This document shows positions 14,480-14,981 of a stretch of 64,000 nucleotides of DNA, piece by piece (position 1 is the stretch's first letter; every line of letters starts with the position of its first letter). Below the pieces are notes generated by a model. The model did no database searches and was not told the origin of the DNA. It saw nothing but the letters and a program-made list of their open reading frames with translations. The DNA is from Mesonia mobilis DSM 19841 (GTDB lineage Bacteria; Bacteroidota; Bacteroidia; Flavobacteriales; Flavobacteriaceae). A program made the position numbers and the translations under genes. Location: the NCBI RefSeq assembly GCF_000423405.1, contig NZ_AUHX01000015.1, forward strand, positions 1-64,000, read 5' to 3'.

Positions 14480-14494
14480 AGAATTGAATAAAAT

Positions 14495-14572
14495 ATGAAA
14501 ACACATAAGGATTTAGAGGTTTGGAAGAAAGAAAAGCCTTGTCATGCTGAACTTGTTTCAGCATCTAAATAA
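14495..14572 (+). pseudogene. Interrupted four-helix-bundle (23S rRNA intervening-sequence type) gene start
   Basis: An ATG at 14495 opens MKTHKDLEVWKK, which closely matches the N-terminus of the small four-helix-bundle protein family often called IVS/S23-like (usually about 115–120 residues). After the twelfth codon similarity ends, the frame runs through the palindrome at 14541–14566 as CHAELVSASK and stops at 14570–14572. The missing ~100 codons are not found downstream of the GIY-YIG gene. So the gene was cut when the palindrome element arrived, or only the 5' end was captured. Recognition rests on a 12-residue match and is therefore moderate. Confidence 0.55.
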
Positions 14573-14909
14573 AATAGATCTATGCCCCAACGAACATACC
14601 ACAATTATACGGTATATATTTTAACAAATAAACCTAAAGGTGTATTGTATATCGGTGTAACTGGAGGAATAGATGATAGAATGGAACGTCATATAGAAGG
14701 CAAGGCTAGTCAGTTTACTTCGAAATATAAACTAAAGCGCTTAGTGTATGTTGAAGAATTTCAATATATTGAAGATGCTATAGCCAGAGAAAAAAAACTA
14801 AAAAACTGGCATCGGCAATGGAAGATTAATTTAATAGAGCAAGAAAATCCTGAATGGAAAGATTTATATAAACCTTTAGCGACAGATCCTGAAACAAGTT
14901 CAGGATGAC
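14541..14909 (+). mobile_element. Putative REP-like element carrying a GIY-YIG gene
   Basis: Two inverted copies of one palindrome bound the element. Left copy 14541–14566 has the stem ATGCTGAA/TTCAGCAT (14544–14551, 14557–14564). Right copy 14884–14909 has ATCCTGAA/TTCAGGAT in reverse orientation. The spacer (14567–14883) holds almost the whole GIY-YIG reading frame, and the last seven codons plus stop are the right palindrome itself. The gene-free pair at 18–103 has the same orientation. No clear target-site duplication is seen beside the outer ends. The call as a mobile unit is inference from this symmetry and from the broken gene at 14495. Confidence 0.55.
14582..14908 (+). CDS. GIY-YIG nuclease-domain protein (YhbQ/UPF0213-like)
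   Basis: A 108-residue single-domain GIY-YIG protein. The two core strands read YTVYILTN (9–16) and VLYIGVTG (21–28), the variant of the GIY/YIG motifs seen in the YhbQ-like group. Arg33 in DDRMERH, the FTSKYK segment and Glu70 in AIAREKKLKNW supply the expected catalytic Arg and metal-binding Glu. The family cleaves DNA in homing or repair contexts, but the biochemistry of this subgroup is unclear. The C-terminus DPETSSG and the stop codon are encoded by the inverted palindrome at 14884–14909. The start follows the left palindrome by 15 bp. No ribosome-binding site is visible. It is oriented with, but functionally foreign to, the polysaccharide cluster. Confidence 0.85.
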   Translation: MPQRTYHNYTVYILTNKPKGVLYIGVTGGIDDRMERHIEGKASQFTSKYKLKRLVYVEEFQYIEDAIAREKKLKNWHRQWKINLIEQENPEWKDLYKPLATDPETSSG

Positions 14910-14981
14910 AAATGCTTATTATCCAATAGTTCCTGCCTTTCGGTAGAAAGGTTTATTTTAGCATTTTAGACTTTTTTAACA

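Follow-up and report, generated by a model that had tools for sequence, protein, structure and literature searches.

Small stand-alone GIY-YIG nuclease genes of many bacteria, including one from Mesonia mobilis DSM 19841, lie between inverted copies of a GTC-tagged palindrome (REP). The type of the palindrome follows the protein lineage, the copy number of the REPs is associated with the presence of the gene, and the unit occurs at different sites and is absent from orthologous ones. This suggests that REP-GIY-REP would be a mobile unit of minimal build with a single protein, a reading to which we give a probability of about 0.7. According to this proposal, the enzyme would recognize its cognate GTC-tagged palindrome at both outer ends, probably as a hairpin or cruciform, and would cut there, after which host repair or recombination would copy the enclosed segment to a new site. 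Acting in trans, this recognition would also spread gene-free REPs and their pairs (REPINs). REP binding, cutting, and the causation of movement would then lie with the GIY-YIG enzyme, and since we know of no covalent DNA intermediates formed by GIY-YIG enzymes, insertion would rely on host repair, being nearer to homing than to classical transposition.

The unit of the window and its protein

The analyzed stretch of DNA (the window) comprises positions 1 to 64,000 of contig NZ_AUHX01000015.1. In what follows, G000 is the source genome, M. mobilis DSM 19841, other G numbers are compared genomes, and L numbers are loci. The GIY-YIG gene (14582–14908, + strand, 108 residues) is enclosed by inverted arms of 28 nt at 14539–14566 (+) and 14884–14911 (−), which are 93% complementary and spaced by 317 nt, the whole unit being 373 bp. 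The left REP carries its TTGTC tag outward, and exact matches to its subtype cover 14540–14566 on the left and 14884–14910 on the right. The initial annotation had described a gene between two inverted palindrome copies, with its DPETSSG codons and stop inside the right one. Both points are confirmed by the arms, the reading frame, and the sequence, the right arm coding for the last seven codons and the TGA stop. A hairpin finder, which missed the bulged types T2 and T4 treated below, gives a stem of 8 and a loop of 5 for the window REPs. Their 17-nt core has three occurrences in the window when up to three mismatches are allowed, 0.11 being expected from shuffles. On the left side, a block common with Mesonia sp. 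HuA40 begins 52 nt before the left REP; this segment (14487–14538) resembles the beginning of a further reading frame (MKTHKDLEVWKK) and is perhaps the remnant of a gene that received the unit.

The sole Pfam family of the protein at E 0.001 is GIY-YIG (PF01541, E 5.9e-16). Across 33 rows, Y12, Y23, G25, R33, H37, and E70 are invariant. The conserved Tyr, Tyr, Arg, and Glu of the superfamily are found as Y12, Y23, R33, and E70 in 33/33 rows, residues that we take to be of the catalytic type in GIY-YIG nucleases. By profile match, the nearest solved sequences are those of UPF0213 (1zg2, E 3.5e-17, and 1ywl), followed weakly by Slx1 (0.0032). Also, the AF2 model, of moderate quality (pLDDT 77.8), has 1zg2 as its top fold match (E 1.3e-3), and then Slx1 and UvrC. 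NCBIfam provided a name for none of eight proteins searched.

Ten PF01541 matches are present in G000, six of them being small stand-alone genes of the window kind (L031–L036), and all six lie among GTC-tagged palindromes. Clean outward inverted pairs are observed at L031, L032, and L035, the right arm is imperfect at L033, the left palindrome of L036 contains an insert, and L034 belongs to a composite array whose copies have both orientations. A REP variant whose palindrome contains about 20 additional nucleotides (AACTACGTTGAATCTTCGAT-like) recurs at L036, L029, L316, and L323. Many REPs occupy intergenic positions with no adjoining GIY-YIG gene, as would be expected if REPs were frequent enough in intergenic DNA for small genes to fall between them sometimes by chance. 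Nonetheless, of the 160 ORFs examined in a 180-kb stretch of contig C7 (minimum length 80 aa), only one has the typed motif outward on both sides, namely the GIY-YIG gene L031 (four others have it only upstream and one only downstream). Together with the slid controls and the lineage matching described below, this leaves a chance placement scarcely credible.

Palindrome subtypes and protein lineages

The palindrome, for which the initial annotation had suggested a search of the full genome, is dispersed in G000: a 13-nt degenerate core is found at 86 places, versus five for the reversed pattern, and a tagged 21-nt pattern at 55 places, versus none for the reversed control. This dispersal, also as doublets, holds for the REPs of the family and does not hold for the exact subtype of the window gene, which is present in G000 at two places, its own two ends. 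Among 67 T1 REPs scanned in this genome (places picked for holding the core, plus 180 kb of sequence), 60 carry CGTC and five TGTC, and 56 combine CGTC with a CAT tail.

The gene-free REPIN at 17–103 of the window (subtype match 17–46) had been regarded as a pair of the same repeat as the gene's ends. The pair exists, with the tags outward and the same stem-loop core, but its subtype differs, being a CGTC tag with a CAT tail (the right half is CGTCTCCCTG, with the tail), whereas the ends of the window gene have TTGTC and no CAT tail. Another GIY-YIG gene of the same genome, at G000:C1:510483–510758, has flanks of the CGTC/CAT subtype, and the pair therefore belongs with this gene. The relatives of the C1 gene mostly carry CGTC and the CAT tail, L098 and one end of L111 having TGTC, and the window clade carries TTGTC or CTGTC, mostly without the tail, the exception being the right end of L071. 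Across 18 genomes in all, the window subtype is nowhere abundant, with 2–11 places in nine others that hold the window clade, including in part the gene's own ends, and 0–2 in the remaining eight. The CGTC/CAT subtype is found at 46 places in G000, at 1–19 in six genomes of the other clade, at 0–4 in the nine window-clade genomes, and at none in two more. The idea that the window gene is the source of this genome's repeats is then not sustained: its own subtype is at two places, and the 46-place subtype fits the C1 gene. Several contig ends of G000 (L018, L310, L312, L314, and L315), the start of the window's own contig among them, lie at one kind of REPIN with 58 bp between cores, which are likely assembly breaks at near-identical copies.

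The association between the genes and the palindromes is general. A scan of genome contigs was used to collect relatives, keeping the best 80 loci by similarity, which belong to Bacteroidota, Alpha-, Beta-, and Gammaproteobacteria, Balneolota, Ignavibacteriota, candidate phyla, and others; four were dropped for short flanks. Terminal inverted repeats (TIRs) were scored by the best inverted match of the upstream with the downstream flank, about 300 bp being taken on each side. A score of at least 14 was obtained for 62 of the 76 loci left from the best 80, against 39 of 3315 slid control positions at the same loci, and the remaining 14 stay below it. A score of at least 12 with GTC in both arms was reached by 50/76 versus 25/3315. 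These 76 loci are not independent, the scan being limited to the 80 most similar ones and rich in Bradyrhizobium.

A less biased sample was a draw of 60 Bacteroidia genomes, own genome included, of which 42 had a match. Genes were split at 87 bits to a six-sequence profile into 53 strong genes and 35 weaker GIY-YIG hits, the latter serving as a control inside the same fold (88 of 90 rows were used, and the weak set lacks ten further listed hits). A TIR score of at least 13 is found for 31/53 strong genes, 7/35 weaker hits, and 20/1529 slid positions. Moreover, a tagged TIR of at least 11 occurs in 25/53 strong genes versus 1/35 weaker hits, and a typed motif lies within 250 bp of 35/53 strong genes versus 0/35 other small GIY-YIG genes. 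TIR scoring and type patterns were used in place of the hairpin finder because the latter caught T1 REPs and missed the bulged types. A single REP pattern, matched in 13 of 60 Bacteroidia genomes, does not by itself track gene presence; genomes use different palindromes.

Also, nine plasmid-collection loci were examined out of 34 records with a match. The GIY-YIG gene lies between CGTC/TGTC repeats in S. meliloti, N. aromaticivorans, Neisseria, and A. lipoferum, all of which are mentioned by Di Nocera 2013 (PMC3733652), and in the Rhizobium, Sphingobium, and Aeromonas loci as well; at the Planktothrix locus the inverted repeat is of a different kind, and at the Photobacterium locus none was found around the gene. 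In the N. gonorrhoeae record (L338:1282–1959), pairs of CGTCATTCCCGC..GGGAATGACG repeats enclose the gene; they are similar to the dRS3 repeats, which the same paper assigns to CGTC-1.

In a tree of 139 proteins with tails removed, 110 rows could be typed (T1, 54; T2, 17; T3, 21; T4, 18) and 29 were not typable. The palindrome type requires eight changes on this tree, the minimum being three, versus a mean of 50.5 for shuffled types, with none of 200 shuffles as low; many forks are open in this tree, near-copies favor the clustering, and the patterns that define the types were drawn up after inspection of the sequences. Four changes suffice for the 40 typed rows from the Bacteroidia draw and own genome. 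G000 itself holds both great clades of the tree, each with its own palindrome types. Among the proteins without a type, a subclade formed by L063, L066, L068, L070, L155, L172, and L173 shows another inverted repeat (CTTCGAG.GCCTCAG-like) at L068, L070, and L172, a short one at L155, and none above control at L063, L066, and L173.

The same matching is observed inside one genus. Three subclades of Bradyrhizobium proteins have three flanking palindromes, mostly on both flanks: CCCTGCG..GCAGGG for subclade a, CCTGGCG..GCCAGG for b, and CCCGGCG..GCCGGG for c. At L216, L241, and L244 the palindrome is on one flank or absent. Class b was assigned by protein identity alone (at least 87%), and a and c were separated partly by their flanks. 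Among 60 genomes, the eight with a b gene have a median of 42 b repeats (10–74) versus 0 in the 52 without (p 6e-6), and the 23 with an a gene have a median of 33 a repeats versus 5 in the 37 without (p 5e-5), both p values being uncorrected for descent; the cross-type controls give p 0.54 and 0.73. The repeats are often outward pairs, 97–98 bp from start to start. As for the exceptions, four of the seven c-gene genomes (G071, G086, G087, and G100) have 50–89 b repeats and the other three (G120, G130, and G135) have 0–6; G125, with 37 b repeats, carries an a gene, and G087, which lacks a full-length a gene, has 152 a repeats. Moreover, 12 of the 60 genomes have at least ten a or b repeats and no full-length a, b, or c gene, including G090, with a broken b gene and 24 b repeats. 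Repeats that survive a lost gene would produce such exceptions.

That each enzyme lineage has its own palindrome points to the missing partner of a widespread DNA repeat family. The placement of a single-domain GIY-YIG protein where a RAYT transposase would stand, as first proposed for the window gene, gains support in several phyla from the lineage matching and the copy-number association.

The unit at different sites

The 48 Bradyrhizobium loci yield 47 pairs whose genes reach 88% identity or more. For 22 of these near-identical pairs, the left flanks are not homologous and the right flanks have no match or only one of 27–40 nt; the remaining 25 have both flanks in common. G114 and G084 each contain two such copies at unrelated sites. 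Between L113 and L246, and between L229 and L246, the common sequence extends piecewise between the left and the right outer tag, to within 3 nt (REPIN-gene-REPIN), and between L231 and L246 it is exact at the right boundary only. Such full-REPIN units measure about 510–610 bp in A. lipoferum and Bradyrhizobium. The nuclease had been presented as domesticated, which is doubtful given near-identical units at unrelated sites, because the unit itself looks mobile.

A 509-bp unit of the REPIN-gene-REPIN build separates sufB from sufC in A. lipoferum, a junction that in five other Azospirillum records is short and has neither the gene nor GTC-tagged repeats, three of them being 93.6–94.6% identical. 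This junction is not base-exact, and neither a base-exact empty site nor a target duplication was found. In Mesonia, the spacer before a gene that we take to encode a penicillin-binding protein contains the L031 element in G000, G149, and G153, gene-free REPs in G152 and G154, a short sequence without REPs in G150, G144, and G151, and other sequence in three genomes; clean empty sites were not found in the comparison of G000 with G153 and G149, these genomes being too diverged. The L031-type gene of G149 (L262) has one extra base in an A run relative to G000 and may therefore be decaying. The copy of the window element in Mesonia sp. HuA40 shows 95.9–97.7% identity, against 70–79% for the alignable flank pieces, a recent exchange by these figures. 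The same genome shows a direct tandem duplication (L071:3957–4831) with a 423-bp step, 98% identical, and two intact genes.

Alternatively, the GIY-YIG gene could be a parasite of REPs, that is, a homing-type element that targets repeats spread by something else, and would in this way end up between REPs and track their number and type. The first GIY-YIG domains known were those of homing endonucleases (PMC1564403), the same-site exchange with diverged flanks in Mesonia looks like homing, and genomes with many repeats but no gene exist. However, the REP subtype of the window gene is present in G000 only at its own two ends, with no resident target seen, and the common sequence of copies at unrelated sites takes in the flanking REPs, up to the outer tags. 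We consider this parasitic origin unlikely.

In another scenario, the palindromes would be terminators of the gene or serve its self-regulation, or the enzyme would be a factor of the host for the processing of hairpins or cruciforms formed by REPs, the REPs being moved by RAYT or other transposases. Slx1, a structure-specific nuclease, is among the nearest solved relatives of the window protein. Moreover, a broad spectrum of transposases is considered in Di Nocera 2013, and RAYT-like genes coexist with CGTC repeats (PMC3733652). Nonetheless, the unit is found at unrelated sites together with its REPs, and the same paper reports no RAYT gene with flanking CGTC repeats. Also, the only Y1 transposase match (PF01797) of G000, which is weak (25.3 bits; L339, G000:C5:55216–55545), is a RAYT-like gene flanked by a palindrome of its own, untagged (TCCTGCAAGGTTTTTAAAATCTTGTAGG), with no GTC types. 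Both systems, RAYT-like and GIY-YIG, seem to be present in this genome. These observations make such a scenario very improbable, and the mobile REP-GIY-REP unit is the reading retained in the comparison that follows.

Comparison with known systems

The window protein resembles the UPF0213 and Slx1-like GIY-YIG proteins by profile and by fold, as described above for 1zg2 and 1ywl, whereas the 35 weaker GIY-YIG hits of the Bacteroidia draw, without tagged palindromes, are set apart from its family. With GIY-YIG homing elements it shares the domain and, in Mesonia, an exchange at orthologous positions between diverged flanks; however, here the domain is alone, flanked by multicopy palindromes, and also found at unrelated sites. 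A homing-type spread only into the allelic element-free site does not agree with the 22 of 47 near-identical pairs with unrelated left flanks.

The REPs correspond closely to the CGTC superfamily, reported from five phyla (Di Nocera 2013, PMC3733652). As in that description, a CGTC/TGTC tag is followed by a stem-loop, dimers are formed, and many alphaproteobacteria and Bacteroidetes are involved; the stem of 8–9 bp with a loop of 4–5 and A-T as first pairs compares with 8 and 5 in the window REPs. The short bulged T2 and T4 palindromes may fall outside the four CGTC families defined there. In contrast, the paper associates no transposase with these repeats, which in its words "apparently lack a dedicated transposase," and a partner gene is proposed here. 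Since its count of intragenic REPs excluded hypothetical proteins below 120 aa, genes of about 100 aa may have gone unnoticed. Full-text searches, which covered few subscription papers and no preprints, returned no work linking GIY-YIG to REP, REPIN, or CGTC repeats, and in two papers containing both words no link is drawn in the passages concerned. For the mover of CGTC REPs, left open in the 2013 paper, there is now a specific candidate that is testable, the available cognate enzyme-repeat pairs including three subtypes of one genus, Bradyrhizobium. With odds only a little better than even, GIY-YIG nucleases could be the missing dedicated mobilizers of the whole CGTC superfamily, the Neisseria repeats included. 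The units would then represent a class of miniature mobile elements without transposase chemistry, whose structure-specific nuclease cleaves the hairpins at its own ends and leaves the remaining steps to host repair, gene-free REPIN populations arising in trans.

Finally, the closest parallel is the RAYT/TnpA-REP system (REPtrons), in which one small enzyme gene likewise lies between inverted tagged palindromes, the palindromes are dispersed singly and as outward pairs, and enzyme lineages are matched to palindromes (PMC8266576, PMC3116915). The differences are in the enzyme, which is a HuH tyrosine transposase (Y1_Tnp) in that system and a GIY-YIG protein in the present one, and in the tag, GTAG there and GTC, CGTC, or TGTC here. 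If the proposal is true, an unrelated nuclease fold would fill the role of RAYT, and a transposase would not be needed for REP dispersal.
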